Positions 9,073-54,025 of a stretch of DNA of 64,000 nucleotides are shown one piece after another; within the stretch, counting starts at the first letter, position 1; every line of letters starts with the position of its first letter. The stretch comes from Telopea speciosissima (taxonomy: Eukaryota; Streptophyta; Magnoliopsida; Proteales; Proteaceae), in contig NW_025317401.1 in NCBI RefSeq assembly GCF_018873765.1, positions 1 through 64,000 on the forward strand, written 5' to 3'. The notes under the pieces are model-generated. The model was not told where the DNA came from, made no database searches, and saw only the letters and a program-made list of their open reading frames with translations. The translations under genes were made by a program, and so were the position numbers.

Positions 9073-9121
9073 TGCTATAATATACAATCTACAGTATAAC
9101 ATATTATTATACTATAATATA

Positions 9122-9137
9122 TTTTTTTTTGGGTAAA
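9122..9137 (-). mobile_element. Ultra-short retroposon, site 1
   Basis: On the minus strand the 16-bp insert reads TTTACCC followed by A9. It is flanked by a perfect 13-bp direct repeat, ATACTATAATATA, at 9109..9121 and 9138..9150. Confidence 0.65.
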
Positions 9138-9170
9138 ATACTATAATATATTTTTTGGTAGAAATAATAT

Positions 9171-9456
9171 GGGTAATTTACACATACCACCCCTGAGGTT
9201 TGACGAAAGGATGATTTTACCCCCCAGTTTTGGAAAATTTTACGTACCCCCTTGAGGTTTACAAACGGTAACAAATAAAGCCATTCCGTCAGTTTATGAC
9301 TAACACTGTTAAAATCAAAAGGTAAAGTGACAAAAATGCCCCTTCAAGAGAAAAAAAAAAAAAAAAAAAACCTGCAAGGCTGCAACTCATCTTTCCCAAA
9401 TCGATTGGGGAAGATGAGTTACAGTTATCCCCGTCGATTGCTCCATCCATGGCTTC
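9171..9456 (+). repeat. Left terminal inverted repeat of the Pack-MULE
   Basis: Pairs with 10227..10500. It ends with CTCCATCCATGGCTTCT, mirrored at the inner edge of the right arm, and contains a small palindrome around CCAAATCGATTGGGG and an A-run at 9351..9370. Confidence 0.85.
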
Positions 9457-9567
9457 TAATGGAACATCTCGATTCCTTTCGTCTTTTTCTTTTACTTCTC
9501 AATCAAAAAGAACAAAATTTCATCTGGGTCTTCATCTCCTGCAAATATATGAAGAAAAGTTCTAACT

Positions 9568-10222
9568 ACTTACCCATTGATCGGTCACATCTTTGCTGCA
9601 CCCAAGAATCGAGACCTAATGATGCCATGGATAGCTGAGGTTCTCCAAAACTCCCCAAATGCAACCTTCACTTTCAAGCGTTTTAGCCGTCGAAACATCA
9701 TAACTGCCAATCCCGCCATCGTTCAACACATCCTTAAGACGCAATTCTACAAATACCCCAAAGGCCCCTTCTTTCGCAACAATCTCTACGACTTACTTGG
9801 TTCTGGCATCTTCAACGCTGACGGTGATCACTGGAAGTTTGAGAGACAGCTCTCCAGCCCCGAATTCAACACCAAGTCTCTCCGCAAATTCTTCAGCACC
9901 GTGGTCGAGGCAGAGCTCTCCGAATGCCTCCTCCCTCTCCTCTCCACCGCCAATGCCCGAGAATTCTGTGCTGGATCTACAAGACATCCTCCAAAGGTTT
10001 GCATTCGACAACATTTGCAAAATCGCTTTCGGTTTCGATCCCAAATCTCTCGTTGTCTTTCCCACAACCACAAGCCGAATTTGCCGTCGCGTTCGGCGAA
10101 GCTGTAAAATTAATCACCGGACGATCTCCTACCATGTTTCCAGTAGTGTGGAAGATGAAGCGAGCACTCAATATTGGATCAGAGAAACAATTAGGGTTAG
10201 CAGTCTCTCACATCCGTCAATT
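9568..10222 (+). pseudogene. CYP94-type cytochrome P450 fragment
   Basis: The plus strand reads YPLIGHIFAAPKNRD, then NIITANPAIVQHILKTQFYKYPKG and DLLGSGIFNADGDHWKFERQ. These are the N-terminal part of a CYP94 P450, from the proline-rich hinge through the C-helix WKFERQ motif. The frame breaks near 9955 and continues as DILQRFAFDNICKIAFGFDP. It breaks again near 10065 and continues as EAVKLITGRSPTMFP and WKMKRALNIGSEK. The fragment stops before the I-helix, the ExxR motif and the heme-binding Cys, so no active enzyme can be made. CYP94 genes usually lack introns, so capture from DNA or RNA cannot be told apart here. Confidence 0.85.
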
Positions 10223-10226
10223 CGCT

Positions 10227-10500
10227 AGAAGCCATGGATGGAGCAATCGATGGGGATACCTGTAGCTCATCTTCCCCAATCGATTTGGGGAAGATGAGTT
10301 GCAGGTTTTTTTTTTTTTTTTGAAGGGGCATTTTTGTCACTTTACCTTTTGATTTTAACAGTGTTAGTCATAACTGACAGAATGGGTTTATTTGTTACCG
10401 TTTGTAAACCTCAGGGGGATACGCAGAATTTTCCAAAACTGGGGGGTAAAATTATCCTTTTGTCAAACCTCAGGGGTGGTATGTGTAAATTAAATTACCC
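10227..10500 (-). repeat. Right terminal inverted repeat of the Pack-MULE
   Basis: Inverted match of 9171..9456. The outer end reads AATTTACACATACCACC on the minus strand, with a T-run at 10306..10322. Confidence 0.85.
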
Positions 10501-10563
10501 AAATAATATTATAGTATAGTATAGTAGTATTATAAAATATATTACTAACAATAGTAATATATA

Positions 10564-10585
10564 TATATTTTACCCAAAAAAAGAG
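10564..10585 (+). mobile_element. Ultra-short retroposon, site 2
   Basis: The insert contains TTTTACCC followed by A7. It is flanked by AGTAATATATA at 10553..10563 and 10586..10596. The AT-rich setting makes the flanking repeat less decisive than at other sites. Confidence 0.45.
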
Positions 10586-11370
10586 AGTAATATATACTAT
10601 AATATATTAATATATTATAATATAATAATATACTTAATATACTAGTATTCCAATTTGATTCGATCTCGATTCTGAAATTTGGTTCCTATGCTGGATTTGG
10701 AATCGAACCGATAACTGAAAACAGAATCGTTCTAAAATTCGATACTCAAACCTAACCGAATTTTATTCGATTTAGTTTATACGACTCAATTTTGGTTTCA
10801 GTTTTTAATTTCGATTTGAATTTGAATTTGAATTTGACACCCTTAGGTACTATGCATCTTCCCAAACATTTTCTCTCCCCTGATATTTATCTGACAACAC
10901 TCTCTTCTCCATGATAAATGTGGAGTTTAAGGAATTTTCATGTCACTTATTTGAAGAATCTGGATATGCTAAAGAAAAATGAAGCATACAAACGCACTAA
11001 ACTGGTGCTTGTAAATTTGGAAAGGATGAAATTTGCATCCTTCCCAACAATGGGAGACAAATGAAACCAACTGTTCATGAATCATGACGGCTAGAAGTTC
11101 TATGATTCTATCGCATGTGAGTGCATATAGTTGGGGCTTGAAAGATTGGATTATGTGTTTACCTAAAAAGATAGATTGCATTCCCTAAAAATAAAAAACA
11201 AAACAAAACAAAAAAAACCCAAAACAATACAAAACAAAAAAGGATTGTATTATGTCAACATGGGCCTTTCAGGCCATTTATTCATCAGCCCATCTTTCCT
11301 AGATGGGCTTAAACCCAACCTAATTCTAATTAGTGAGATTGATTGGGATCAGGCTCCTTTATGGCGCTGA

Positions 11371-11590
11371 GGTGCGCTGGAAAATGTTCGGTGCACCCTC
11401 CCAGAGCTCAACATGTGGTCGAGATGCTATTTGGATGGCAAGTATGGATGCCCACCACCGAGTTGGATGCACATGCGGTGGAGAGAAGGATTTTCCAGCT
11501 TGGTGGTGTGCATCCATCCTTGCCATCCGAAAAGCATCTTGACCATGTGTCAAGCTCTAGGGGTGCACCAGACATCTTCTAGCGCACCCC
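11371..11590. mobile_element. Foldback MITE
   Basis: Long inverted arms starting GGTGCGCTGGAAAATGTTCG and ending CATCTTCTAGCGCACC. The match continues inward through GAGCTCAACATGTGGTC and GACCATGTGTCAAGCTC. No clear target duplication. Confidence 0.65.
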
Positions 11591-11738
11591 TACACCGTAG
11601 AGGAACTCGATCCAATTGGTTGACCCTGAACCCTCAATTTCGGCCAAGGCCAGACCTGAAACCTTAACCAATTTTCACCTCTAGAATTTGGACCTATTGA
11701 AAGGCCATGTTTGGCAATATTACTATCGTTACATGTAA

Positions 11739-11759
11739 TTTTTTTTTTTTTTTGGTAGA
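11739..11759 (-). mobile_element. Ultra-short retroposon, site 3
   Basis: The minus strand reads TCTACC plus A15. It is flanked by GTTACATGTAA at 11728..11738 and 11760..11770, and the flanking match extends into T-runs. Confidence 0.7.
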
Positions 11760-11918
11760 GTTACATGTAATTTTTTGAGATTATAAGACATAAATGAATT
11801 TAAATCCTAGAATTCCGATACGTACTCTTCAGGATTTTGGATTTATAAGAGTTGAATCCCGAAGGCCATTGTATGGCTATTAGAGCTTCTCACTCTATGT
11901 GTCGTATGTGAGGGGGTT

Positions 11919-12042
11919 GAATGTTCACATACTCGAGCGTATGTGAACGACTTACAACCGTTCAAATGGAACATTTCCATAGAACAGATTCCATTTGAAC
12001 GGCTGTGAATTGTTCACGTATGCTCATGTACGTGAACATTCC
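11919..12042. mobile_element. Foldback MITE
   Basis: Inverted arms GAATGTTCACATACTCGAGC and GCTCATGTACGTGAACATTC, with inner arms CCGTTCAAATGGAA and TTCCATTTGAACGG. No target duplication established. Confidence 0.6.
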
Positions 12043-12424
12043 CTACACACTCGTATATTTGGTTTTCCCCTCCCCCTTTCATCCATTTTGTAGCTCTTTC
12101 TTCCTTTTGGAAAATTTTCGAAGGGAATTAGATTTTAATATAATTCCAAGGATTTGTCCCCAAAAAATAAAAAAAATTTAAGCCAAAATTTAATCCCTGA
12201 TATCCTTTTGCAAGCAAGGGAGTTCAAAGGTCCTTGCCATTATATTTATCTTCTGTTGCAATATGACAAATTCCAGTTTTATGAAATAGTGAATAATGAT
12301 AAAATTCCTTTTGATGAAAAATATGGAAAATTAATCTATTTATTAGGAGAACTACTGATAAATATGCGTTTCCATGTGCGGCCTCATTCCACGATACATT
12401 AATACCGGAGTGGGAGAACATGGA

Positions 12425-12738
12425 GGCTTCGTTTGGTTGCAAGGGGTATTACAGGGAAGGGAAGTGAAATTTTAAAACTTGAAATAGAACTTTTTGTAAT
12501 CATTACTCCATGTGACTATATTACTAACTCCAAATCATTCCATATTTGGTTATTTAATTCCATTTTACTTTGCATCCATTTCCCTTTGGTTTAAAAAGTA
12601 AAATAAAAATTACATGTAAAATGTATCATTACTAAATATGGTAAGACATACAATTACATGGGGTAATGATTACAAAATTCCTTTTTAGGTTTGAAAATTT
12701 TCACTTCCTTTTGATTTCCTTTGCAACCAAACATAGCC
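12425..12738. mobile_element. MITE with short inverted ends
   Basis: Ends GGCTTCGTTTGGTTGCAA and TTGCAACCAAACATAGCC are inverted copies, and similarity continues inward (GTGAAATTTTAAAACTT and TTTGAAAATTTTCAC). Both sides are flanked by GGA. The superfamily is uncertain. Confidence 0.6.
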
Positions 12739-13217
12739 GGACTAAATTTTCAAAAAGAAAAGGGTAATTTGAAAAGAGATTTTTTTTATAGTGACACATC
12801 TTAAGATGTTAAATAATTTATAATTTTATTTTTTTTCCATTTTATTATAACATTTTTTTTCCATATGAAGGTAAATCCTACCATTTTAGATGTGTATTTA
12901 AAAAATGGCCAATACAATGATAATTTTTGATAATTACATAATGATAAATCATTTTTAATATTATTTTAGAAACATTTTTGGAAAAAAGAAGGCAACCTAA
13001 TTATGTGGAACTCAGATAAGTAAGTAAAGAGGGATTTTTCACTACTAGTAGACCATGCGCTTAAACAAAACTGGTTTTTCAGAGCAGAGAAACTTAAGGT
13101 TAGAGGACCTAATAAAGCAGAGAGAACTACGCTAAGAAGTCTTCTTCACCCAACTGTTGCAGGAGTAGCCAGGCTGGTTGAAGGTCTTCCCTCAATGAAA
13201 GGAATTGTAATAAAGAT

Positions 13218-13409
13218 TTGTTTGGGAGACGAGCAGTAGCTAATAGGGATGTGAAGTCTGCATCTATCTCTGCACTCATTACATTCTTCGAAAGGTATGA
13301 AAAAGCATCTGGGGTAAAAATCAGCAATGAAAAGGGTTTTTTCATTCTTTCCGATAAGGCATCTCCTGTTAGGGCGTCTATTATTCAGCACAACACTTCC
13401 AACGCCCAT
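13218..13409 (+). pseudogene. LINE reverse-transcriptase fragment
   Basis: The plus-strand segment SALITFFERYEKASGVKIS followed by NEKGFFILS matches the stretch after the YADD box in plant L1-like reverse transcriptases (FxxxSGLxINxxKS). Only about 60 residues are recognisable. No catalytic box or rest of the element was found. Confidence 0.6.
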
Positions 13410-13529
13410 TGATCTTCATATCAACGTACAACAGGGAATGTCATCTAAAACCCTACTCCTTTTATAGACGGGCATTTAACATTTGCACCGAGTTCACATG
13501 GGTAACCTAATTAAACGCCCTCCTATCCA

Positions 13530-13712
13530 TCATCTACAATCAAATGCACTCCATTTTTCTTTCATTGGGTAGTCACGGGCTCTGTGAGGTCCTCCACAGA
13601 TGAAAGAACTCCAATTCCCCTTGTTAGGTTTACCAGGCTTGCGTGCTACTGCGTTCGAGGAAGTGATCAAAGAGCAGAAAGCCTCGTTCTTGTTCCCACT
13701 TGTTGATTTCAT
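13530..13712 (-). pseudogene. gag zinc-knuckle fragment
   Basis: The minus strand reads FICGGPHRARDYPMKEKW, which matches the CCHC zinc knuckle of gypsy-type gag. Two of the cysteines are replaced by Ser and Tyr. The sequence upstream to about 14300 holds broken gag-like text on the same strand. Confidence 0.55.
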
Positions 13713-17103: not shown

Positions 17104-17129
17104 TTCAAAGTGTACCGGTCGAGCCCACC

Positions 17130-17149
17130 TTTTTTTTTTTTTTGGTAGA
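17130..17149 (-). mobile_element. Ultra-short retroposon, site 4
   Basis: The minus strand reads TCTACC plus A14, 20 bp in all. It is flanked by a perfect 13-bp direct repeat, GGTCGAGCCCACC, at 17117..17129 and 17150..17162. It lies about 100 bp upstream of the STR4A-like ATG, probably in its promoter or leader. This is the clearest site because the flank is not AT-rich. Confidence 0.85.
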
Positions 17150-17245
17150 GGTCGAGCCCACCAGTACTTCGATTTTTGGTCTCTGATATGATTTGGAAGG
17201 AGATCTTATTATCTTATCCTTGGTGAGTTCCTTACAGTCTCTCTC

Positions 17246-20200
17246 ATGGCGTCTGGTATTGCAGTTAGCCTTTCATCTTACTCACTTATCCAATACCAAT
17301 TGAAAACCTGCAAATCCACATCTAAACCCAGTTATTTTCTTCAAAATTTCCGGTGTGAGTGTCTTCGAGCTACCAAATCCTCTTCTCAAACCTCCCTTTG
17401 TCATCCTAACAACCTTTTTTCCACTGAAACCGCTCACCCATGTAGAAATTGCTTCATTACTCACAAAGCAACTGTACTCTGTGCTAGTTTTTCCCAAGAG
17501 CAGATTCCAGACCTCCAGGCTCTACCAACCTCGCAACTAAACCAGCTTCCCATGAGGAAAGACAATTTTTTTGGGGAAACCATGATTACCCATTACCCAA
17601 ATTGTTCAAAGAACCAACTCCCAATTTACAGAACTGTTTCTTTTGTCAAAATTGCGTCTACCCATTTCTCAGATTCTCTTAGAAACCATATTTTGGTTCT
17701 CGAAATGGCTTCTTTTCTTAAAAATTCTCTTAAACTCTACCTTTCCCTTGTGCTACTGGGCGTCTCTGCTCCATTCCCCAGCTTTGCCATTGAAGAAACT
17801 ATACGAAATGAGGAGCTCCCAGGTAAAGTCAACCTGGAGTCCATTCTAATTGCAATTGATGATTTTTTCAACAGGAATCCATTTTTTGTCTCTGGAGTTA
17901 CTTTCATTTGGCTTGTTGTGATTCCTCTAACTCAAAGATACCTGAAGAAATACAAGTTTATCTCTGCGATCGATGCTTTTAGGAAGCTCCGGGACAGCCC
18001 AAATGCCCAACTTTTGGATATTAGGGACAAAAGGAGTTTGCTATATCTCGGTTCTCCCAATTTGAAGATTTTAAAGAAGAGGGCAGTCAAGGTTCAGTTC
18101 TCTAAAGGAAAAGAAGAGGATTTTGTGGAGGAGGTGTTGAAGAATTTTAAGGATCCACAGAATACAACTCTCTGCATACTTGACAAGTAAGTGTGGCAGT
18201 TCTTTTGAAAAAAAATCCTTGATATTAAATCTACATTATTTAGATTTTGTATGTTGAGAGTGATAACTTATTAGTGTTTTCCTTCTCTTAAAGAGTCTGA
18301 AAGAACAGAGTTTTAAGTAGAACTTCTATTGGAAAGCTGAAGTATTGCATTTTGGTTTCCTCAAATGTTTGCCTAAAGTCTAACTAATGAAAAAGAGAAC
18401 TGAAAGTTCGACCTAAAAAAAAAGTACTTAAACTTGGTATTGAGACCTGCTAAGATTTCAAATATAAAAATGTTTGAAATATGGAATGAGGCACTGGCAG
18501 CTGGTGCTTTACAAATATAAAAATGTTTCATGACTGCACTCCAGCAATAATAAACGGCAATTCATTTAAGTAAAATGTTGATGGAGTAGATTAAATAAAT
18601 ATGTAGAACAAAAAGTTCATGTTATGGATCTGCAAGCAAACATATTCATTACAGTACTTGATTCACATTTCTTTGGCACTAACCTGGACAGTTAGTTCTT
18701 TCTGCTGGATTGATGAAATATGCTAAAAGTTTGTGTCAATGAACAATTGATTGGTGAGAATGTAAAAACTATTATTGATGAGTGTATCATACATTCTGTT
18801 TTTTTTAACTAAACTTAAAAGCCATAACTGGAGACAAGTCTTGTTGGACTAGAGAATAAACTAATTCTGGAGTTAATCGTAGATTATGACCCTTGTGACC
18901 AGGAGGTCACGGGTTCGAGTCTGGAAAGAGCCTCTCTGGGAAAGCAGGGGTAAGGCTGCATACATTGTGACCCTCCCCAGACTCTGCAGTGGTGGGAGCC
19001 TCGTGCACTGGGTACGCCCATATACAATCTTAGATTTTCCTTCTTTCTCATTTCTGCTGCCTATAAGATTTTCTTCCTTAAAAAATTCTTCTTCAGGCGA
19101 GGTCTCATAACGAGTCATTTTTCTCATTTGACCTTTTTGGGATAACTAGCAGGATATTGATTTCATCAATATTTCCCTTTGCTGTGTAAGGTAGCTTTGA
19201 TGGTAATTCGATGGAAGTAGCTGAGTTATTGTTTAAGAATGGTTTCAAGGAGGCTTATGCCATCAAAGGTGGGCTTCGAGGAAAGGACGGGTGGCAGGTA
19301 ATTTCATCTTCTCTCTTTACCTAGGTAATAAATTGGTGTATTTTGACACCTTGAATAGGTTCCATGTAAGTTCTGAATGGAAAGGATTATTCTCGACACA
19401 TATTAGCCATGTAGACATCTTGATCTGGATCTCCTCTTTAATTCTCTTTTCAGTTTGGTTAATCTAGTTTGACTGCCGTTTGCATTTCCTGAATGTCCAA
19501 TGGTTAGCTAGGGTTTCTTGAATTCTGAGATACCTTAAATTTAACAAGGGTTTTACGATGTTCATATCACAGAGGATATGTATCAGGTTTTTATTAGCTG
19601 GACTATTCAATAAAAAGGTGCTTGCTCTTTGAGAGGATCTGATCTGTGCTACTTGTATTTCAGTCCTTCGTCCTTTGATTTTGGATTGATCAGAAAATAA
19701 ATGGTAATGGCCTTTGTGGGAACTCAAAATAACTATGTTACATAAAACACAAGGAAAATAAAGAACAACACAAACACAGCTAGATTTTCTTTGATGTCAT
19801 AAATTGCCCAAGACCATGGGAATGAGATTAGTGATTTTCTCTATTTAGAAAATAGGATAACAGCATTTGGGTTTCCCTCTTCCTCACATGCTCTCATCTC
19901 TTTGAAACTGATGATTTCTCGTAATATATAAGTACTAGTGCTTAAATACTGATTTGGCCCTTACTTTTTACCTGCCTGTCCAAGGCTCCACATTGCATAG
20001 TGCCCCCTAATAAGGAGCATAGTACGCCCCTGGGAACATGATTTCGGGTAAAATTTACAGTTCCTTGGGGAACCGGCAAATGGTTAAAGATATCTAAAAT
20101 CTAAGCTTGATTACGTGTAACTATAAACTTTTTGACTAAAAGTATAACCATAATTGCTGATAGTAAATTTACTGAAAGTTACTGCTTCATGTATTGATTT

Positions 20201-22199
20201 TTTCTACTTGCAGGAAATACAGGAAACCCTTTTGCCACCAGCTGTTCATGTTTTCCCGAAGAAGAAGGGTGACTCATCACAGCAACTTGAGGTAAATGGG
20301 GGTCTCAAAAGACAGACTGTTGAGAATGGCCAAGAACCCTCTTCTCCAACTGTTCATACAAGAGGAATCAAAATGGAAGCAACTGGACAAATAAAGACGA
20401 CGGGATCTTATCCACAGACAAATCTTGACTCTGGACGACCGTTATCTCCATATCCAAATGTAATCTTTGGTTCCCCCTCATCAATCTTTGTTCTGTATCC
20501 AAGCATAAATTACCTAAGTCATTAGAGCTTAGGCATTCATGCACTTAATTATATCTAAGCATAAACTTTTGCAGATATCAATGCATAGATGATACAGATA
20601 TGCAAAACATAATTTGTTCTCATCTATTTCAAAATAAAATAAAATAAAATAAAAGTAAAGAGTAAAAATTAAAACATAAAAAATAAAAAAGAAAGAATTA
20701 GTATGTCAATGCACTTTAAGCTTAAATTTACTGTTTTTCTGCCCAAAGGCCAGTGATTGAGCACGTTTGTGGTGAATGTGCTTGAAAACATTCATATCTT
20801 GATATGTGTGTCTAATGTTCTTGCAAACATGACAATACTTGCACAAATGCCTGAGAAATAGTTATGATACCTGTGTCTGGTACTTAAGGTACTGCCATGG
20901 GTAGAAAACTGTAACAATGCACGCCTAAGACTGGCAAGAAATAGTATGTTGAGATTATTGAGATGTTGCAAAGGCCTTTCTTTCATTAAAACTTAGGGAA
21001 ATAAAACTTAGTCTCTTTGTGAACAGCATCCCCCTTCCCTACCCTAAGGCACCTCTAGAGGCTGCCCTCGAAATCATGGTTGTCAAGGCGTCGCCTAGTT
21101 GCCTTGTTGGTGTCACCTTGGTTTTTTCCCCCCTCCACCATCCTAGCTGCCTTGGCAACTATGCTCGAAATGAATTAATTTGACTCAGATATTTCTTCTT
21201 CTTCTCTTCCCTTTTCATAAAAGAAAAATAATTGATGCAGCCAAGGGAGCGGAAAGTCCCCTATTGTGCCTGCAGGTAATGGACCTAAGGGAATTCAAAA
21301 GGGAAAATCCCAAAACTGAACTTAAACAAGATGATTTAATGAAACAAGAAAAACAGCAGAAATAATAGAACAGAAGAGTAGAAGAAGTAAAAAGCTAGAA
21401 AATGAAATCAGCAAAGTCAAGTTGTCAACCAGGCATTACCTTGGGAAAAATTCAATAATGAAGGAAAAATTCCCACAATTCTTACTCCAGATCAATACCA
21501 ATATCCTAGGGTTCAAATTCATTAACTCAACACCTCAGATTTACTTGTACAGCCCTATATATAGATAACCCTTCCCAAAAACGAGGTTAGGCTAAAACTT
21601 TAAACAAAATCCTAACACAACTAGGAATAAACTCTCATTGATAATAAGACTCATAATATGAATCTAATTACATATAACTCCCATGAGTGCTCAACCACTT
21701 TTCCAATCAAATAAAGTTACTAATCTAAGAAGTAGACTCAAGATAAAACTCTTAGTATAACTAGACTTCCTCAATAAGAAATCCCGTAACAGATAAGCAT
21801 CGCATCAGTAAAGTGGCCATAACTCTCCTGACATAAGTCTGAATTCTCTCAAATGATAAAATATCATATAAAATAGAGGAGTTTTTTACCATCCCAAAAT
21901 ATCCTAAAAAAAGTAATGGTAATAACCCAATTTCCTGTAATATGATGCTCCCAAACACCAAAAAGTAATCTACTACCATGTGAAGTATATCCAAACCACT
22001 CTTGGGATGCTCCTGCATCAATAATAAAGATTATGATTCCCACCAAAGGTGAATAAATTTTCTTTATTTTGCTTATTTAGTTTCCCATTGCATCCTCAAT
22101 AAAAGCACATTTATTTTCATTTTGCTCTTATAGTCTATTTGAAATTCATTATGAATGTTATTATGTATATTTCTGTTTTCCTCTTAAGTTACATACATT

Positions 22200-32400: not shown

Positions 32401-33036
32401 AATGTATGATCAGATTTAGTATACATGTGTTGTATGTGGACCATTCAACTTACGAGAAAGAAAGAGAGAGATACATGAAACAAAAATTTTCGATCCCTGC
32501 TAACATCCATCATCTCTTGCTGCAAATCTATATTTTTTCTCCACCGTGCCTCTACCTTAGTCTCGTCACCACCCTATGCTTTCTCCTCTCTCTATATCCC
32601 TTCGTCTTCCTCTCTTTCATGACCCTGCTATCTCTCTACGATCACTAGAGTCGGTATTTGTTCTTTAGTAGGTGTTGCAACTTCTTCCAGCAATAACAAA
32701 TAATGACAAGAAAATTTCCCTCTTTCGAATCCTATATACATATTGTATTTTGCAGTCCACTAAATTTCTTAATTTTTTTTGTAATACTACTGTGTATTCA
32801 TATGTATACATGTTATCTAACATTGTATCGCATAGAAGCACATGTGCTTAATTTCAATGGCCCAAATTTAATGATTCTGATTTGTCGGTTACTAAAAAAG
32901 TGACTGAATTGATCCTCCATTGACCACTGAATTGATCCTCCATTGACCACGGGTGGAGGAAAACTCAGTCCAAAGAAAATCATACTATGTTAGAAAAAAT
33001 CAGAAATTATTGTATTAAAATACAATACAATATTTT

Positions 33037-33057
33037 ACCACCAAACAAAAAAAAAAA
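33037..33057 (+). mobile_element. Ultra-short retroposon, site 10
   Basis: The insert reads ACCACCAAAC plus A11. It is flanked by ATACAATATTTT at 33025..33036 and 33058..33069, a perfect 12-bp repeat. Confidence 0.6.
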
Positions 33058-33499
33058 ATACAATATTTTTGGCTAATGATATAATTTTTTATCAATGGAG
33101 TTCATCACATTCATCATACAGCAGGATTTTTTTTCCTCACTCAACCACGACCAACATATCCATAAAAAAAAATCATAAAAAGAAGGATTCCAAAATACAA
33201 TTCCCTGTCGTATACAATAAAAAATTGAAAGGACAAATAATAAAGAAATACAAAATAAATCTATGTAAAATTACAATTAATTCTCCAATGAACTTTTTAT
33301 TGAAGCCAAGGGAGCCTACAAGAAGCAAGTGTTACACAATTGGACTAAGCAATGCATATAGAGATACAAATATTTGTTTTAAACCAATCAGTATCAAATG
33401 AGAGTATTTTTCCACATCTTTGGATCAGGTCTGGAATTTCACCCCCCCCCCCTTAATGTCCCACCCACAGGCTAGCAACATAAGCAAATTTAAGAACCA

Positions 33500-33562: not shown

Positions 33563-33599
33563 GGAGCAATCATGGTGCAATCCACCATATCAATATTGG
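33563..33599 (+). repeat. 37-bp inverted copy of the Ycf20-like start region
   Basis: Identical over all 37 bases to the sense strand of 37584..37620, which lies just after the first ATG of the Ycf20-like gene and includes its second in-frame ATG (AATCATGGTGCAATCC). It lies in opposite orientation, 286 bp past that gene's stop. Confidence 0.95.
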
Positions 33600-35926: not shown

Positions 35927-37623
35927 ATAACAAAACTATCCAACTCTGATTTATTATGACACAAAATTTGTTGAATATGAGTTGATGGTTCACAGTAATA
36001 ACAATAGTATTCTTCTCCAAAACCATATCCGTACAGCCTTAATAAACATATTTTCCGCAGTCTCTGATAGTTCCATGGTTAGGCTATTTCACTTGATATA
36101 ACTCTGGCAATTGATTAAAATTCACAAGGGTTCATTTGGATACACAAATCATTTCAGTGAAATAGCATCCGACATTGCATAACACTGTAACTCTAAGGTG
36201 TTCAGATACACAGGCTCATCATTTAGTAGTTAGAAATTAGAATGGAATAATCATCAGTTGTCATAAAATAGAATTCAGTTCATTCCTTGAGAGGTTCAAT
36301 TTTGTATGGGGTTTTTCCTTCTAGCCATCCCAAACAAAAATCTTCTTCACCTCCCTCCTTTGAGGAGAACAATCCCAAAGAGACAATAGATATACTCTCT
36401 TGTAGGGTCCCATGCATAGTTGATAAGGTGCCTAGGCGAATCAAGGAGGCCGAAGGGGTTGAAAAATAAGGCGACCCAACAACGCGACAAGGCGTCGCCT
36501 AGGTGACCAAGGTGACACCAGAATTCAAGGTGATGCAAGGCGCCTTGACAACTATGGTCCCATGAAAAGCTCACTCCAGATGACATGAATTAGCTTGTTT
36601 TCCCAGAAAGGCTTTTACGGAGTATAAGAAGGAAAGGAGCAAAACAGCATTGTTTTTTAAATTCTATTTTTCTTTTTCCTCTTCCAATCACCAATCTTAA
36701 ACTGCAAGTATAGACTTGAAAGAAGCATAAGAGAATCGCCCCCCCCCCCCTCCAATTACAGATCTTAAAATGCAAGTAATTTTATTTTTGGGCCATAATC
36801 TTTATTATGCCTCAGTTACAAAGGTAGTCTTATTAGAGAAACAGATCACTTGGCAGTTTAGTATCAGATGGCATGTAATGGTTTCTGCTAGATTTTGTTT
36901 GAGGATGCAAAATATATTTTCCTCATTCACCCCCCCCCCCCAGCAGAACATGCATACATTCATGCAAAAAATGTGAGAATCTGAACCATAACCTGCAAGT
37001 ATTTATTTCTATTACATTACTGCAGTATGATGAGTCAATAGTTGGTAGTCCAAGCTCCAGAAAGCAAGGGCAAGAGTTTCTGATAGTTTTTGTTTATGGA
37101 TATAGAAATTTACTGTTGTATAGAGCCTCACAGAAAATGACATAAGTACCTCACTAAGCATCCTTCCAGGTAGTTCTGTTTACACCACCTTTTGGAAGGT
37201 CAATAATAAAAAATCATACTAATCAATTCAAAACAAAAGCTAAAAAGGTTGGAAACTAACTGGGTCAGAAGGAAATCCCCTGAATAAGCAATGATTCATT
37301 CATGAATATAATTTTTATTTTATGGGCCAGTAATGTTGGGCCAAATTTTTAAAATGCACTTTGATGGTCAATAATCTTGATATACCATCCATTACAAATA
37401 TCTGTTATTTAACTTTCTAGAACTTAAATATGTAGAAAGTTAGAATCTACCTCTTTCTAAGAATTGGTCCAGGTTTTGACCCAACCTTCAAAATTTGTCC
37501 ACTCAAACTTGGTTTGAGGTTCCAGTTCTGCCTTATATTAGAAGTTGAAAGGATGATACATGACCAGTTGGAGCTCCTGCTCTCCAATATTGATATGGTG
37601 GATTGCACCATGATTGCTCCCAT
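33885..37623 (-). CDS. NPQ7: Ycf20-like chloroplast protein (NPQ7 type)
   Basis: Two coding exons on the minus strand, 37451..37623 and 33885..34329, joined by a 3,121-bp GT/AG intron in consistent phase, giving 205 aa. The start is the ATG at 37621..37623 (MGAIM); a second in-frame ATG follows four codons later. Residues 1 to about 60 are Ser/Arg-rich without acidic residues, as expected of a transit peptide. The mature part has an acidic linker, then TRLGRIV, then NFPMKIFLLLLGFYTANAL, ATILGQTGDWDVLVAG and VNYWKAGVCLGLFVDAFK, which is the Ycf20 signature with three hydrophobic segments. Arabidopsis NPQ7 and related proteins of this family affect non-photochemical quenching; the molecular role is unknown. 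A 5' leader intron is likely. The orthology call rests on the near-complete match of the membrane part. Confidence 0.88.
35885..35924. repeat. (AG)n microsatellite
   Basis: A 40-bp AG run in the large intron of the Ycf20-like gene. Confidence 0.95.
36415..36556. mobile_element. hAT-like MITE, copy 4 (in Ycf20-like intron)
   Basis: A 142-bp element with ends CATAGTTGATAAGGTGCC and GGCGCCTTGACAACTATG. It is flanked by a perfect 8-bp duplication, GTCCCATG (36407..36414 and 36557..36564). Confidence 0.9.
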
Positions 37624-37703: not shown

Positions 37704-37872
37704 AAAAAGGGCGTACCCAGTGCACGAGGCTCCCCCCACTGCGGGGTCTGGGGAGGGTCATAATGAACGCAGCCTTACCCTGCTTTCACAGAGAGGGTGT
37801 TTCCAGACTCCAACCTGTGACCACTTGGGCACAATGGAGCAACCTTACCGTTGCACCAAGGCCCGCCCTCTT
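37704..37872 (-). mobile_element. Au SINE, copy 2, full length
   Basis: The minus strand begins near GGGCCTTGGTGCAACGGTAA (A-box region), has a B-box-like GGTTGGAGTC, the AAGCAGGGTAAGGCTGCG and CTCCCCAGACCCCGCAGTG body, and ends GGGTACGCCCTTTTT. It is flanked by a 16-bp duplication, GATATGCATAATAACT and GATATGCACAATAACT (37688..37703 and 37873..37888), one mismatch. It lies just upstream of the first coding exon of the Ycf20-like gene, in the likely leader intron. Confidence 0.9.
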
Positions 37873-38599: not shown

Positions 38600-39577
38600 C
38601 AAGAATGGTTTTTATTCGAAAAGGTAGCGAATAGAGATAGAATACATAAAAAGTTAACATGACCATAGAACCCAACTAGAAACCACTACTTCGGAATCTC
38701 TTTCAATCGGAATGAAGCGATAGAATCCGAGACGTTATACCTTAAGCGATGATCCTCTCTATCTCTCTGCTCGATTCTGATGTGCAGCAAAGGCGCACAT
38801 TAGCGTGGCTTGCTCTGCAACTTCTGTGCTTTTCTCATTATCATTCCTTCCTTTCCATGGTAAACGAAGAGAAGGAGAGGAAGTTGGTGGGGAAAAATTC
38901 TAATTGACCACGAGAAACGATGCCTTCGCATCACGACCGAAATTCGGTCGAAATAACCGACATACACAAAAGTTTCGGACAAAAACCGAAAAATCTGATA
39001 TTATGGCTCAAGTGAAACCAGGTTCACACCTTCACCACTGATCAGAACGACTGAAATGGACCATTTGGACCGAAACTTGGGGGGGGGGGGGGCGGGAAAA
39101 AAAATGATAAATTCAATGTTTTTTTACACTTTTTCCTTTATATATAGTTAAAACACATATTACACTCGTTTTATATGCCATCTCCTTCTTGGGCATTTAA
39201 AATGTCATAGTCTGTATCACTCTATAACTTATGACATAAAACTGTCAAAACTTATGACATAAAACTGTCAAAATTTTGAACTGAACACATTTTAAATGAT
39301 CCCTGTATTTTGTAAATAAAAAAGGGAAAAATAATTCTATCCATGAACGTGTTTCCTACGTTCAAATACATGATGAGACAAAATGATCACTCTACCCCCA
39401 TGAAAGGCAAAAATTTCACCCATGTTGATGCTTTTGTTATGCGTTTTCAATGTCCACCAAAGGAAAATTGGGGTCTCACTTCCCCATAAAAAATGCCACT
39501 TCTAATGAGTTTATTACAAACCATATATAGATATTAATATTTAATTAATAAAATCTGAATTGGTCAAAAAAAATTTA
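38600..39577. other. Promoter-side flank of the Ycf20-like gene
   Basis: No coding region supported. Likely promoter sequence on the minus strand near 38600..38900. A G12 run lies near 39079. Confidence 0.3.
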
Positions 39578-39713
39578 GGAAGAATGTTCTTTGTGCCGCA
39601 GAGCAAGCTGCGCCTAGGCACATGGACCTGCAACTCAGGGGGCAGGATAGTCATTACGCCCACCCCCATGTACTTGAACGCAGCCTACACTGCGGCACAA
39701 AGAACAGCACCCC
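39578..39713. mobile_element. MULE-type MITE
   Basis: A 136-bp element with ends GGAAGAATGTTCTTTGTGCC and GCACAAAGAACAGCACCCC. It is flanked by a perfect 9-bp duplication, AAAAATTTA (39669..39677 region at 39569..39577, and 39714..39722). Same family as 46829..46940. Confidence 0.85.
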
Positions 39714-40599
39714 AAAAATTTATGAGATGAAATCAGAAACAGGGTGCATTCTTAAGTGACTCCATACACCATGTGATGTAGGACTAAAGTGGTTTCCTTT
39801 TTATGTGACTTGAAACCTCCAGTTGCCATGACATGTGAAGTCCCAATTCAATGTGTGACCACCTCATAGCCTCATGTCATTTCCCATCCAGCCATTCACA
39901 TCTCATCCAGGCACCACTCATCCATAGCGTATCCATCACACCTTTATTTCTCCATACATCACTTCATGTCTCTACGTTCTCTCTTGGTCTAAGCTTCTCA
40001 AAATCAAAATCAATATTCATTAAATTTTCTCTGTTTAAAACCTGTATTGTTCATTTTCGTTTGCCATTTTCTTAATGGTTGATTGTATTTTTAACTATCT
40101 CGTTTGGTTTCCGAACCATTTCAAACATGCCGTACTAAACAAAGTTTTTTTTTTTTTTTTTTTTTTCATTTCCATTTTAGATATGGTTAGAGCAACAAAA
40201 GAGTAAAAAGAGACTATTCAAAGATATTGATAGCAAAACAATAAGTATGGGTTTCAGTTTGGCTTTTGTAGACCAAGCATCATATTGGTCTGACCCGATA
40301 TATAAAAACTGAAAATATCTGACCAAAACCGGACCAAATCGACTGATTGATACCCCTACATCCAAGTTAGGTGCTATACTTACAATCTTATCAATTGATT
40401 TCATACTTTTTCTTCTAAAAGGAAATAAGTTATTGACTTCCTAATTAGTAGGTTGCTTAATAAACCAAAGGTGAATGAATATTGACTGTTTACCAAAAAA
40501 ATGGGTATTAATAAGATTCTTGTTTTATTAAAAAAAAAAGTTCATTTTTAAGATATTGATGAACTCTTTCTTAATAGAAAATCATATTTTGGAATATTT

Positions 40600-40622
40600 T
40601 TTTGTTACCCCAAAAAAAAAAT
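40600..40622 (+). mobile_element. Ultra-short retroposon, site 7
   Basis: The insert reads TTTTGTTACCCC plus A10 and one T. It is flanked by TTTTGGAATATTT at 40587..40599 and 40623..40635, a perfect 13-bp repeat. Confidence 0.7.
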
Positions 40623-40804
40623 TTTTGGAATATTTACTCAATTATAGTTTTTCTAGGTGTAAGATTTTGAAATCTTAAACTCTTTTTGGGTAGTAAAATC
40701 CGCATTTAATAAGTAATGATGTGCAAAGATTTCATACACATTCCATGTAAACATTTTCAATGCTTAGTTCACTGTTTCTGCTATGTAATTTATATGGAAA
40801 AGTT

Positions 40805-40820
40805 ATTACCAAAAAAAAAA
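40805..40820 (+). mobile_element. Ultra-short retroposon, site 8
   Basis: The insert is only ATTACC plus A10, 16 bp. It is flanked by a perfect 17-bp direct repeat, ATTTATATGGAAAAGTT, at 40788..40804 and 40821..40837. Confidence 0.85.
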
Positions 40821-40859
40821 ATTTATATGGAAAAGTTGTTTTTACTCAGGAAGGAGGCT

Positions 40860-44189: not shown

Positions 44190-44846
44190 TGTCTCCATTG
44201 GCATAGCTACTGGTAGCTCTAGGAAAGCCAGTGGGGTGCCCAACCCTCTCCCTAAAATCAATACGAAATGAGAAAGAAACATGTGAAATCCCCCATATAG
44301 AGAAGGTATGCAACTGAAATTAGAATGGATAATTTAGGTAAAATAATACTTGACAAGAAAGACACATGGAGCCCACAAAAATTGCTTTAAATCTAGAAGG
44401 ATTGGAATAAATTTTGATTCAAAGTTAGTTGTTTTTAAATTCACTTCTTGTTGTTTTCATAAGTTCAATTTGATTATTCATCAACCAGATCCATATTTAA
44501 TCTTGTAGGTAATCCTAAATTAAATTTATGTCTACAGAGTAATCCAACCTCAGTAATGTCTTGGTTGATAGCTTATTGTCTTACTTCTTTAATACAAAAT
44601 TGTTTCTTTCGCCAGTCTTGTTTCTATGATGTTTTTTTGTGGTCACAGTGCACTTTTAATGGAATTTTATTTTTAAAATCTTAAGACTATTGCCACTGAA
44701 GTGATTTGCTTATTCTGATTCTCAATTTTCTGTATTCAGTTAGAAGAAATCTCGCCAACATCCACAGTCATCATACTGAAGTATGAAAATGAGCAGTTTG
44801 AGAATTTTCTAGGTTGTAGACTGTGGCATTGGAAGTCCACTTTGGA
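44190..44846. other. Gene-free stretch
   Basis: No feature supported. Confidence 0.3.
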
Positions 44847-44926
44847 AGGGTGTACCCAGTGACAAGGCTCCCACCACTACGGGGTCTGGGGAGGGTCATA
44901 ATGTACGCAGCCTTACCCCTGAAAAA
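44847..44926 (-). mobile_element. Au SINE, copy 3, 5'-truncated
   Basis: The minus strand carries only the 3' half of the Au SINE: GGGGTAAGGCTGCGTACATT, CCTCCCCAGACCCCGTAG, GGGAGCCTTGTCACTGGGT. The tRNA-like part is missing. Confidence 0.75.
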
Positions 44927-46676: not shown

Positions 46677-46702
46677 TTTCACTTATTAATTATTTGTTAC
46701 TC

Positions 46703-46722
46703 CTTCACCAAAAAAAAAATTT
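46703..46722 (+). mobile_element. Ultra-short retroposon, site 9
   Basis: The insert reads CTTCACC plus A10 and TTT, 20 bp. It is flanked by a perfect 17-bp direct repeat, TTAATTATTTGTTACTC, at 46686..46702 and 46723..46739. Confidence 0.82.
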
Positions 46723-46828
46723 TTAATTATTTGTTACTCAAAAAACCCCAGTTTGTTTGGTTAAAACTGATACTGTGCTCCCCCCCCCTCCCCCCTTGCG
46801 GTTTAATACCTGGTCCAATTTTAATTTA

Positions 46829-46940
46829 GGGAGAATGTTCTCTGTGCCGCAGCGCAGCCTGTGCAGGGGGCAGGGTGGTCATTGCGCCCACCCCCATGTG
46901 CCTGGGCGCAGGCTGCGTTGCGGCATAGAGAACAGCGCCC
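46829..46940. mobile_element. MULE-type MITE
   Basis: A 112-bp element with ends GGGAGAATGTTCTCTGTGCC and GGCATAGAGAACAGCGCCC. It is flanked by a perfect 9-bp duplication, TTTAATTTA (46820..46828 and 46941..46949). Same family as 39578..39713. Confidence 0.88.
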
Positions 46941-47115
46941 TTTAATTTAAAACCTAAGGTTTACACCCATGATCTTTTAAGGTTTAAGGGCGGGCATAGA
47001 GGGAGTCAGGGAGCTATCCCATGAGGACCAGATTTAAGTCATTGAAGATGGATTCAAATGCCAAGGTGCAATGGATTTTGTGAGGTAGGGAAAGCTATCA
47101 CTTTTTGGGACCAGG

Positions 47116-48802: not shown

Positions 48803-50745
48803 AACATCAATCTGTTATTATCCCTCTTATCTCCGACAGAAAGACAAGAGGAGATCCCTGAAGGGACCAAGAGGTTGTTGCGTCATGAGATGCACAAAGA
48901 GGAAGAGTGGGGGGGGGGGGAGAGGAAACTCAACCCCCATCCCTCTTACAGCTGGCGTAGGAGCCACACAACCTGGCAACAAACCCCTTCCTGATAATTT
49001 AATATATAAATAAGAATGAGTTGCTCATTAAGCCCTTGTAGACATAAAATTAGTAGTGACCTGAGCACATCCCTCTCATTTTTTTTTAGGGGAAAATTTC
49101 CCTAATCTAGCATGTCTTGAGAGCATCTTCAAACTGATCAAATTATCTACCATGTGACAGATTGGATAGAACCAATATTGAACCAATATTTTGTGAACAT
49201 GCAAATCTTAAGGTTGTTTGTTCATATGTTAAGAATCAAATAACATGTAATGGACTACGTGGAAAAATAAAGCTTTGAAAATAAGTGAAAATGAAACTTT
49301 TCTAAAGTAAGAAAGGACAAACCTAAAGATACAAAGAAATTAGAAAATACATGAAAGGATATATGGTTGAATTGAGCCTTTACACAATTCCTGTAGAAAT
49401 ACTCATCAACTTTTTCACATAGCTAAACTTGGTGCCAATCTAGAAATATTCGCAGAAGTTACTTCTGCCTATATGATGCTTAAGATTTACATTTAGGAAG
49501 GGATTTCAGCTGCTGGCATATCATTTTTGTTTTGTAATTTTAAGTGGTGTTTCATATTTAGGCAGTGTTTGGTATGCATTCCAAGTCGATTTTGCATTCT
49601 TGGATGATTAAAATAGTTGGTTTTATTGTCCAAGAATGTGAAACCTAGAATGCATTCCAAGAATGCATACCAAACACATGCTTTAGTCTCTCTTATCGTC
49701 CCATTATGTGTGTGTGTGTATTTTTGTTTTTTTTAGAAAGGGAAAAGGAGTGATAATCTTTAATTATTAATTACTAATTACTTTTAAAGATAAAATGGAA
49801 TACAGCTGTTGAAAGCTTCCTTTCTTCTTCCATTGAATCATAATATTTAAAAGGGTGAGGGCTTTCGCTACTGCCGATGTGGGGAATCTCCCACTTCATA
49901 CCAATTGGAGCTTGAGAACCAGTTTCGTTGATAGAGGTTCATATTGTCAGGAAGGAAAGATATTGTCAGAAAAAAAAAAAAAAAGACTGCGTGGAAAACA
50001 TCTCCACAATGAGAACGTAGGGATATTTTACCCTTTTAAAATAAAAGTTTCATCCTTTCATGAAAATGAAATGATCAGTTACAATCATGAAACCCAAATA
50101 AAGAAAAGGAAAAAGTTTTCATATACGGTCGTGTAAATCGTGCATATGAGGGAGTGAGAGTTTTAAGATATTAATTAATGGATGAAGATTTATGACTTTT
50201 TCCACTCTTTGTGAGAGACCCACTCACATACATGGCTTACACAGCCGTGTATGAAAACTTTCCCCTAAAAAAAATTGTAAACAACCATCAAAGCAACTTC
50301 TCCTAAATTAAAGAAAAATTGGTAAAATGATGATTAGTTTAGTCAATGAAGGAGAAACTTAAAAGGAAAGGCACCACTCCTAAGCCCTCTATCATAAGAA
50401 AAAGATGGTGAGAGAAGAACGATTGGGATTGGGAACGCCACGTGGAGACTTGAACAACCTTCCAAGAACTTCCCCTTTCATTCCCAACTTCCACTCCAAA
50501 GCTATCCATTTCTAGAGCAAATAAATGCTTCTATTCTTTAAACGACTCTTGACTTATTCCTATTTCTACAAAACATCATCAAGCTTGGAAAACTTGGGTT
50601 TGATAACCCATTTGAAACGGAAGAAGTGTTTTTTTTCTTTGAAAGAAAATAAGACAACTGCGAAAGAGACGCTGAGATACTAACAACTCTTACGGAGTGA
50701 TGTCGATCGTTGGAGACCCACTAGAGAAAATAATATATATGAGGG
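48803..50745. other. Gene-free stretch with MITE
   Basis: Apart from the MITE at 49561 nothing is supported. A G12 run lies near 48909. Confidence 0.35.
49561..49682. mobile_element. PIF/Harbinger-like MITE
   Basis: Ends GGCAGTGTTTGGTATGCATT and GAATGCATACCAAACACATG. Both sides carry TTA (49558..49560 and 49683..49685), the usual PIF/Harbinger target. Related decayed ends (ACCAAACACTG) lie near 48060 and 54760. Confidence 0.6.
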
Positions 50746-50766
50746 TTTTTTTTTTTTTTTGGTAGA
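50746..50766 (-). mobile_element. Ultra-short retroposon, site 5
   Basis: The minus strand reads TCTACC plus A15. It is flanked by AATATATATGAGGG (50732..50745) and AATATATATGATGG (50767..50780), one mismatch in 14. Confidence 0.75.
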
Positions 50767-51595
50767 AATATATATGATGGTTACATTCCCTGAAGTGTTA
50801 CAACTTAAACTATGATTGAAACCCCACCTCCCCTAAACAAAAATAAAACTAAGACATTCGGATTTTGTCATTAGGCTTTTTTGTATTTTGGAAAAAGGCT
50901 CTCTAAGCTTGAGGTGTACATCATGGTTTGAGGTAAGGGCATTCAATCGTCCAATCTGGACCCTGATCGATCTTGTATCGGTGGATTGGTTCAGACAAGG
51001 GGTAAAAATGGGAGAAAAAACTAATTTTTTTTTTATTTTATGAAAATAGAACTGATCCAAATTGATATGGCTGATCCGGATTGATATTGGCTGAGATCGA
51101 TATCGATTGGTAAAACCCTAGTGTACACTGTACTTCCTCACATTTATTTTTATATTACTTTTTTAAGAAAAGAAAAACAATGACTTAAAAAAAGGAATTT
51201 TATGTTTTATATTTTATATTTTTTTGTCTTTTTAATAAAACATATTTTTTCTATTGAGGTGATAGTGTCATTTCACGTGTGTAGTAAAAATATATATATG
51301 ACGATGACATAATGATATAAATCACTTTTAACTTATTTTTAGAAGGGATTTTATACCTTATCGTCTTAAAAGACTTTTGGACCATTCAGACATTTCCTTT
51401 AAAAAATGAATATGAGTAAGTGCAATGTATCCTGCTGGCTGGGAGAAACCTCTCCCTTTTTTTATTTCTTTTAAAAAAATTATCCTCATGCGTTGGTCCG
51501 ATCAGATTCAATTTTATTAATTGATCCAACTTCTAATTATGGGAGAGAGTTCCGTTTTGTTTTTTTGGTTTCAAAAGAAGTTTTTCCTTGTGTAA

Positions 51596-51678
51596 GACTA
51601 ATTTGGTAATTCGCTGGTTTTTTTTGACAAGGACTAATTTGGTAATTCTTTTTTTGGTAAGGACTAATTTGGTAACTC
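51596..51678 (-). mobile_element. Ultra-short retroposon, site 11 (triple flank)
   Basis: GACTAATTTGGTAATTC occurs at 51596..51612 and 51632..51648, and with one change at 51662..51678. The spacers are GCTGG-T8-GACAAG and T7-GGTAAG; the second reads CTTACC plus A7 on the minus strand. It may be two successive insertions at one target, or one insertion followed by slippage. Confidence 0.5.
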
Positions 51679-51679
51679 T

Positions 51680-53559
51680 ACAGTTGGATATGTCCATAAT
51701 GAATCAAATTGACCTTCTCTAAAATTTTAGAGAGGAAGCATTTCCTGTGTGGGAGTGTGGTCCCTATATGCACAGAAACATGAATTGGACAGTCATTTTG
51801 CATTTCATGGAGGGTGAAGTGGTCATTTTACCCCCTCTTGTGCCTGGCATAGGTGTCGGGCTCTCCTACAGAAGCCATTTTCCCAATTTCAATGGGAAAA
51901 GAAGGGTACCTTGTCGTGTGGAACCTGTGCCCACACACAAGAGCACATGTAACTACAACCCCTCCCCATGAAAAAAAAATCCTATCCATATTAATGCATT
52001 TGCATGCGCTCTCATTGGCCCCCCACAGTAGTGCAGGGGCCATGCGAACAGGCAACAATGTCTTGCCCAATTTCATATCTAAATTTAATTAGTTTTCTTC
52101 CTAGATATATTATTTCATATCCACTCATTTATATCTATGCATTATTCTGCTAGTCAACACATCCTCTTGATGGTCGTTAGTATTTTTTTAAGGAAAAAAG
52201 ATTCGAGGTTGCATGGAGCTAGCACCCAAACATAGGAACATGCAAAATTACCATCCTACTCCCTATGAAATCAAAAATCTCATCCATGTTGATGCCCCTA
52301 TGCACTCTCTCAATGGCCCCGATGCTGGTGCAGAGGCCACATAGCTTGGCAACAATCTCTTGCCTTTTTTAATGTTTTACTGGAATTTATGTTTCATGTC
52401 CAACCGTGAAGTATACACTAATGCCTCCCTATATCTATCTCTCCTCCCATGGCAGACATGTCATTTCATAGAATTGAAAAGAGAGACATTGACACAAGAA
52501 GGCATTAGCTTATACTATGCTACTTTATTTCATCACTTGGAAAAGTCAATTAGTTTAGGTTAGAACTTGATGTTTATAGTAATTAATCTCGTAATAGAAC
52601 AGTATAAAGAAGGAGAAGTAAAGGAGGGTTTTAAATAAAATAAAAGGAAAAGGCCAGCTGGCTTAGAAGCCAAGCAGAGGTTGGTTCTGGTATGAAAACA
52701 TGGGAACTAAACGTAGAGCCCTCGTGGCTTACACGTGTTTAGGGATTACAGACTTTTTTCTACTAAGAATGAATAAGACAAGGTATCTGCCAACCTGGAT
52801 TCGAAAATGCCGAACTCGCACATTCAATTCACGCGGAACCGCTTTATTACCCACCCAAGAAGTGTGTTCCAATGCCTAAAGCATGTTCGAAGAAATGCCA
52901 ACTCGAAGATTATTGACTTCGATTCCACCTAACCAACTAACGCACCCTTCCAAAACCTGTTCCTTTCCTTCCATCTCTTGTGTTTTTTTGTTCTCATTTA
53001 ATTACAATTACAGAGTTCCATCTATACAAGGTTGTTAGGTTGGATGTCATGCGCATTAGGTTTCTCCCAAGAAGGAACCTGTAGGAGTTAAGATCACTCC
53101 TACATAAATTTTTAAGCCTCTCTGCCGGCCGCCTGCATTTGCTTATGTACGTATTATTATAATCTTTATTTATAAATAAAAATTAAGAAGAAGGAACATG
53201 ATTCTATGTTAATTTATATCATTATGATTCCAATCTAATATATCATATATGTAGTGCTCAATAACATCCCCCCATGTTCATATTCAATTCTTACACATTT
53301 AGGTCTGGTTTGGTATGATTTCTATTCTATTTCTATTTCGGTTTAATTTTCATGAAATAATTAACAAATAGATTTTTGGTTAAAAAATTGAAATTGTTCG
53401 ATTGTACTAATAAGAAATTCGGGTGGTAATTCAATTTTTGGGAAAAATTCTCTATATTTCTTTGGAAGAAAGTGGTATTGGTGGCGGTGGTGGTGAGACC
53501 ATCAGGAGAAGAAGAAGAAAGGCTGAGTTTTAATCATACTTATTCTCAGATTTCAACTT
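51680..53559. other. Gene-free stretch
   Basis: Two related repeat ends (CAGGGGCCATGCGAACAGGC near 52028 and AGAGGCCACATAGCTTGGCA near 52329) match the end of the MITE at 46526. No gene supported. Confidence 0.35.
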
Positions 53560-53567
53560 ACCTTTGA

Positions 53568-53805
53568 CCATGGTTCTAAGTATCAGTATCAGATCACTTG
53601 TATCAGGCAATCCGTATCGGTTTTGCAGCTTGTCGATCCTGATACCGTGCTGATACTGTATCGGTGATAGGGTATAGGCAAGGGGTAAATCGTTCAAAAA
53701 TCTATTTTTAAAGGAAGATGAGGGGCAAATTTGTCCGATACGATCAATCTTTGCCGATACTAATCTGATATCCGTTCTGATATCGTGCAGTAAAACCCTG
53801 TCGCT
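53568..53805. mobile_element. Probable DNA-transposon derivative
   Basis: Begins CCATGGTTCTAAGTATCAGT and ends ATCGTGCAGTAAAACCCTG, with repeated GATAC/GTATC strings within. Similar text occurs near 47260..47480 and 51060..51115. The open frame across it is a by-product; its far end (53811..53946, minus, MPDFRTLALQLEKPSSEDK) is an unrecognised possible exon fragment. Confidence 0.4.
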
Positions 53806-53990
53806 GACCCTACAGTAAAAATAATAATCCTGATCGAAACAAGAGCACATATAAGATTCAAATGTCAGCATGAAATTTGATTTCTCCAATTTATCTTCAG
53901 AAGATGGCTTTTCCAGTTGTAAGGCAAGAGTACGAAAATCTGGCAATTCTTAGCTTTCCCTTTCGTCCCAAGTCCAACATCGTTGATGAA

Positions 53991-54010
53991 TTACCTATCA
54001 AAAAAAAAAA
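53991..54010 (+). mobile_element. Ultra-short retroposon, site 6
   Basis: The insert reads TTACCTATC plus A11, 20 bp. It is flanked by a perfect 15-bp direct repeat, AACATCGTTGATGAA, at 53976..53990 and 54011..54025. Confidence 0.85.
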
Positions 54011-54025
54011 AACATCGTTGATGAA

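Follow-up and report, generated by a model that had tools for sequence, protein, structure and literature searches.

Target duplications of variable length, typically about 7–20 bp, combined with an A-tail at the 3′ end of the insert are the layout left by target-primed reverse transcription (TPRT) of long interspersed nuclear elements (LINEs). Simple poly(A)/poly(T) insertions have been described in human disease genes and attributed to the L1 endonuclease, and the authors of that report trace them tentatively to severe truncation of an Alu, an L1 or a processed pseudogene (PMC3219598). A truncated L1 insertion of 34 bp, accompanied by a 1.1-kb deletion, has been reported in a tumour (PMC7058536). 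Here we describe eight minute inserts of related layout in a 64,000-nucleotide stretch of the Telopea speciosissima genome (contig NW_025317401.1, positions 1 to 64,000; hereafter the window). Each consists of a short body followed by an A-tail, enclosed by a target-site duplication (TSD).

As in the human poly(A) insertions, the inserted sequence is almost entirely A-tail. The human case is reported as a disease allele whose tail measures about 120 bp, and a list of 48 contains three earlier ones (PMC3219598); here eight inserts with tails of A10–A15 and similar bodies of 6–12 nt lie within 64 kb of plant DNA. Like the 34-bp L1 (PMC7058536), the loci would be LINE-mediated insertions in which little of the template is retained; unlike that insertion with its 1.1-kb deletion, they show intact target duplications, clustered body sizes and no longer member found in the window. 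A word-matched search of open-access titles and abstract openings returned no account of an abundant class of such minimal inserts, which is weak evidence of absence. The mechanism is of a known kind; what may be new is the existence of a dense class whose members share a body of limited size.

Direct repeats flanking A-runs exceed chance

The main scan covered all runs of at least seven A's (A7+) on both strands of the window (n = 99). Each run was scored, without regard to any preceding motif, for a flanking direct repeat, a score of at least 10 denoting at least 10 bp with at most one mismatch. Such a repeat was identified at 12 of the 99 runs. After dinucleotide shuffling of the flanks, with the A-run and the 10 preceding letters kept, one such run appeared in 3 of 20 rounds and none in the remaining 17. 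The 12 runs take in the eight loci that we consider clean (Table 1), those at 9122, 51649 and 51618, which are treated separately below, and a mirror-image row at 40597 that was excluded from locus counts. Per-locus controls, with 400 flank shuffles at each of 12 loci, gave 0/400 at ten loci, 1/400 at 33037 and 39/400 at 10564; among the clean loci alone, seven stand at 0/400 and one at 1/400.

Two further scans point the same way. One for exact repeats returned 8 rows (7 loci, 51649 among them), against a mean of 0.03 and a maximum of 1 in 30 dinucleotide-shuffled windows. The other made no use of A-runs and recorded exact repeats of 11–25 bp at a spacing of 18–70 bp, low-complexity repeats excluded; it returned 18 rows against 0–3 per shuffle (10 shuffles). 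These rows correspond to seven of the clean loci, three positions in a tandem repeat at 51.6 kb and eight other short duplications with inserts of 15–51 bp. The insert was no longer than 25 bp in 11 of the 18 rows, and seven of these 11 belong to the clean set.

The original prediction had listed eleven such inserts from the letters alone and proposed a count against shuffled controls. The A- or T-runs are present at all eleven coordinates, the repeat positions given for 17117, 40788, 46686 and 53976 were reproduced to within one base, and within the window the motif-blind repeat layout is far above chance (12/99 vs 0–1/99). Eight of the eleven loci stand; those at 9122 and 10564, located in the arms of an inverted repeat, and at 51649, located in a tandem repeat, were withdrawn.

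The clean loci are distributed over both strands at a density of eight in 64 kb, or about one per 8 kb of this window. Their TSDs measure 13–18 bp, or 11–17 bp without the A's that possibly belong to the tail. Seven are perfect and one (50746) carries a single mismatch, amounting to 1 in 122 positions. This low divergence hints at recent events, and it is a mere hint because the scan favours perfect repeats. With regard to the T/A nick preference of L1-type endonucleases, the maximal TSD starts with A at five of the eight loci, and in two of those five the preceding base is T. The mini-insert at 17117–17162 sits 84–129 bp upstream of the ATG of a 314-aa open reading frame (ORF) at 17246, perhaps within its promoter or 5′ untranslated region.

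Table 1. Clean mini-inserts in the window, followed by the loci that were dropped. Bodies are given in insert sense; flank shuffles are out of 400.
Locus	Positions	Strand	TSD	Body	A-run	Flank shuffles	Remarks
11739	11728..11776	-	up to 17 bp (11728-11744, 11760-11776)	TCTACC (11754-11759)	A15 (11739-11753)	0/400	six A's shared with TSD
17130	17117..17162	-	13 bp (17117-17129, 17150-17162)	TCTACC (17144-17149)	A14 (17130-17143)	0/400	
33037	33024..33069	+	up to 13 bp (33024-33036, 33057-33069)	ACCACCAAAC (33037-33046)	A12 (33047-33058)	1/400	
40600	40587..40635	+	13 bp (40587-40599, 40623-40635)	TTTTGTTACCCC (40600-40611)	A10 (40612-40621)	0/400	single T before 3′ TSD
40805	40787..40837	+	up to 18 bp (40787-40804, 40820-40837)	ATTACC (40805-40810)	A11 (40811-40821)	0/400	
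46703	46686..46739	+	17 bp (46686-46702, 46723-46739)	CTTCACC (46703-46709)	A10 (46710-46719)	0/400	TTT before 3′ TSD
50746	50732..50782	-	up to 16 bp, one mismatch (50732-50747, 50767-50782)	TCTACC (50761-50766)	A15 (50746-50760)	0/400	
53991	53976..54025	+	up to 15 bp (53976-53990, 54011-54025)	TTACCTATC (53991-53999)	A13 (54000-54012)	0/400	
9122, dropped	9109..9163	-	19-bp repeats	TTTACCC	A9		adjoining TCTACC-A6; 29-bp tandem and left arm of long inverted repeat
10564, dropped	10553..10596	+		TATATTTTACCC	A7	39/400	AT-rich DNA; right arm of inverted repeat shared with 9122
51649/51618, dropped	51596..51679	-			A7 at 51649, A8 at 51618		three-unit tandem repeat with two A-run junctions

Similar bodies precede the tails

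The bodies at the clean loci are 6, 6, 6, 6, 7, 9, 10 and 12 nt long. Three unrelated sites carry exactly TCTACC, and the others read ATTACC, CTTCACC, TTACCTATC, ACCACCAAAC and TTTTGTTACCCC. The triplet ACC occurs within 10 nt before the run at 8/8 clean loci, compared with 8/87 A7+ runs that have no repeat; this contrast would have a probability of about 5e-9 if the runs are independent, and it was drawn post hoc. Runs directly preceded by [TC]ACC(C) carry a flanking repeat in 8 of 11 cases, against 4 of 88 for the other runs (Fisher p = 4e-7). The latter test includes dropped rows, with 9122 and 51649 among the 8 and 51618 and the mirror row among the 4; within the clean set, six of eight loci have the motif directly before the run. 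Because this motif was first put forward on the basis of the same window, the p-values attached to it are not independent of that choice.

Across all 99 A7+ runs, ACC is the commonest preceding triplet (10/99). TACC precedes six of them, where 0.5–0.9 would be expected, and AAAT is equally frequent (6/99). The original prediction had bodies ending in TACC, TTACC or CACC, a description that suits most of the eight (CACC at one) and is inexact for ACCACCAAAC and TTACCTATC.

Longer forms and candidate sources in the window

Longer inserts of the same layout were sought up to 3 kb upstream of every A7+ run, with 10 shuffled windows as control (0 or 1 row each). Of the 12 rows returned, seven are clean loci and two lie at 51.6 kb; the other three are 9109, the mirror row and a tandem duplication of 398 bp. 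This duplication aside, the scan revealed in the window no TSD-bounded, A-tailed insert measuring between 24 bp and 3 kb. The scan recovers seven of the eight clean loci, missing 50746 with its mismatch in the repeats, and is blind to old copies with decayed repeats and to inserts above 3 kb. A variant based on A6+ runs recovered five of the eight clean loci and one further tandem duplication.

At the other end of the size range, no A-run in the window has an exact 11-bp repeat abutting both sides, as a pure-A insert would. Fourteen sites with [TC]ACC(C) before A4–A6 showed no convincing repeat (one 9-bp match, at 21960). Exact repeats of at least 11 bp lie near 5 of 1107 A4–6 runs, and none of the five was retained: two at 39.2 kb represent a tandem repeat, 9135 and 33033 are loci of Table 1 seen from the other side, and 12840 is A-rich. 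For the A7 runs at 40495 and 61446, which are preceded by TACC or CACC and have no near repeat, a search of the 9 kb upstream for a 14-bp copy, allowing one mismatch, was negative. An alignment of the paralogous segments at 0.2–1.5 and 3.5–6.7 kb revealed no empty site of a mini-insert.

We failed to identify in the window a LINE ending like the inserts, either by the 3-kb scan or by a regular-expression scan for reverse transcriptase and endonuclease motifs. The original prediction stated that no SINE (short interspersed nuclear element) or LINE of the window ends in TACC-poly(A), and indeed the 3-kb scan found nothing longer with that end. The window contains no tRNA gene detectable by ARAGORN and no Rfam family at gathering score. 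The inserts themselves do not qualify as SINEs, their bodies of 6–12 nt being too short for an RNA polymerase III promoter.

Three related copies at 18890–19019, 37707–37837 and 44846–44921 are 88–92% alike by BLAST, and we take them to be Au-like SINEs, a type known from plants. They share with the mini-inserts a small size and dispersed positions, and a target duplication is visible at one copy. The copy at about 37.7 kb, flanked by the repeats TGATATGCATAATAACT and TGATATGCACAATAACT, is longer than 100 bp and ends in GGGTACGCCC-T5, whereas that at about 44.85 kb is shorter and reads GGGTACACCCTTCC at the corresponding end; neither has a TYTACC-A end.

Origin of the inserts

We favour, with a probability of roughly 60%, the reading that the clean loci are separate TPRT events by a LINE, templated by one family of poly(A)-tailed RNA and halted just upstream of the tail. 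The original prediction had read the layout as that of TPRT by LINE machinery, and this is borne out in that duplications of variable length (13–18 bp) surround a 3′ A-tail at all eight loci, far above chance, with the tail next to the 3′ copy (T or TTT intervening at two). The target would be nicked by a LINE endonuclease, most likely of L1 type because the tail is poly(A). Reverse transcriptase would then prime on the tail of a polyadenylated RNA with a TYTACC-like 3′ end, copy the tail together with 6–12 nt and halt, and filling of the staggered ends would produce the target duplications. Because copying would begin at the tail, the tail-adjacent letters should correspond to the 3′ end of the template, and their similarity points to one family of source RNA. 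The claim of a single source RNA thus gains some ground, the bodies at the clean loci being alike enough to suggest one source family. The point at which copying halts may be roughly fixed, set for instance by an RNA structure immediately upstream. The narrow range of 6–12 nt, with neither pure-A nor longer inserts, suggests such a fixed stop rather than random 5′ truncation, as judged from eight loci.

Several observations weigh against this origin. A set of eight loci from one window is small for any statement on body length, and ACCACCAAAC and TTACCTATC fit one source only via mutation or subfamilies. A T at 40600 and TTT at 46703 separate the A-run from the 3′ TSD, and the count of TSDs beginning with A is biased, since A's at the start of a TSD are absorbed into the tail. 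The 14 [TC]ACC(C)-A4–6 sites yielded no decayed older copies. The source element was not found in the window, where a set of reverse transcriptase and endonuclease motifs matched at only two isolated short stretches, 50444 (+) and 13873 (-), without any FADD-like match.

Ordinary extreme 5′ truncation accounts for much of the same evidence: an L1-type LINE or a SINE ending in TYTACC-poly(A) would have been truncated at random, and its shortest copies would happen to lie here. In humans, simple poly(A)/poly(T) inserts occur, as do L1 inserts of very small size (PMC3219598, PMC7058536), and copies of one LINE family would be expected to share a 3′ end. However, random truncation should also produce bodies of 20–1000 nt, none of which appeared in the 3-kb scan that recovered seven of the eight clean loci, and no pure-A insert was seen in the window either. 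We regard random truncation as a serious but rather unlikely explanation. Tandem duplication, slippage or filler-DNA repair of a staggered break, all without reverse transcription, would fit 51649 and may fit 9122. At none of the eight clean loci, however, does the insert recur beyond the second, 3′ copy of the repeat, and neither filler DNA nor slippage would bring similar ACC-A(n) sequences to unrelated sites, which makes this group of processes very improbable for the clean set. The view of the original prediction that slippage is unlikely accordingly applies to those eight loci, where the insert unit is unrepeated, and fails for the tandem repeat at 51649 and possibly for 9122.

We also considered a polyadenylated small RNA ending in CCA (tRNA-like or a tRNA fragment) as the template, ACC-A being its 3′ end. 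The core of the bodies, ACC followed by A, is indeed that of tRNA 3′ ends, but the letters before ACC are T-rich, unlike most acceptor stems, and in two bodies further letters follow ACC. In the window neither a tRNA nor an Rfam match was obtained, a result with little bearing on the rest of the genome. On balance a template of this kind is hardly to be expected.

Repeated TPRT from one RNA family could be taken further, to a dense and discrete class of recently active retroposons whose members consist of a 6–12 nt body and an A-tail and arise when a LINE reverse transcriptase stops repeatedly at a fixed place just before the tail. We put this forward tentatively, at somewhat less than even odds. 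Should the same density apply across the genome, retroposition would be the origin of many of this plant's A-run microsatellites and small insertions, seeded by a class whose members carry too little sequence for repeat libraries or repeat finders to recognise or name. The inserts would also constitute a natural record of the places where a LINE reverse transcriptase stops.

Loci excluded from the clean set

The sites at 9122 and 10564 face each other in the arms of an inverted repeat (9078–9458 and 10226–10636) and have TTTTTTTGGGTAAAATA in common. Because they lie in arms of one inverted repeat, they are copies of one sequence rather than independent inserts, and neither was counted. The 9122 site passes the flank-shuffle test, and Tandem Repeats Finder calls a 29-bp tandem there; 10564 taken alone looks like chance. 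The sites at 51649 and 51618 belong to three successive tandem units, and duplication fits them better despite the passed shuffle test.

The long inverted repeat at 9078–10636 (89% identity over a 285-column alignment of 9174–9458 with 10492–10226) surrounds a cytochrome P450 fragment with overlapping ORFs in two frames. It is perhaps a foldback or Pack-type element with a captured gene piece.

Other features of the window

The window has the appearance of nuclear DNA of a plant. Pfam was applied to 8 of the 15 ORFs of at least 120 aa and gave matches in 3 of the 8. The ORF at 57880–58515 matches glycosyl hydrolase family 9 (PF00759, E 1e-39), and that at 9577–10107 matches cytochrome P450 (PF00067, E 1e-9).

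A duplicated segment is represented by 261–1461 and 3545–6577, with BLAST pieces 77–86% identical. An insert of about 200 bp at 6125–6328 is lacking in the paralogous segment near 1192 and is flanked by the imperfect repeats GATTATAAAGGAAA and GATTTATAAAGAAAA. Read on the minus strand, it is similar to the 3′ end of plant RTE-type LINEs and terminates in TTGTTCTTGATGGAG, not in poly(A). At 4699–5497 a 398-bp unit occurs twice in tandem with 99% identity. Two related foldback elements at 39572–39712 and 46823–46940 have the appearance of miniature inverted-repeat transposable elements, with inverted ends resembling GTTCTTTGTGCCGCAG. Finally, the 37-bp sequences at 33563–33599 and 37584–37620 are 100% identical and lie in inverted orientation 4 kb apart.

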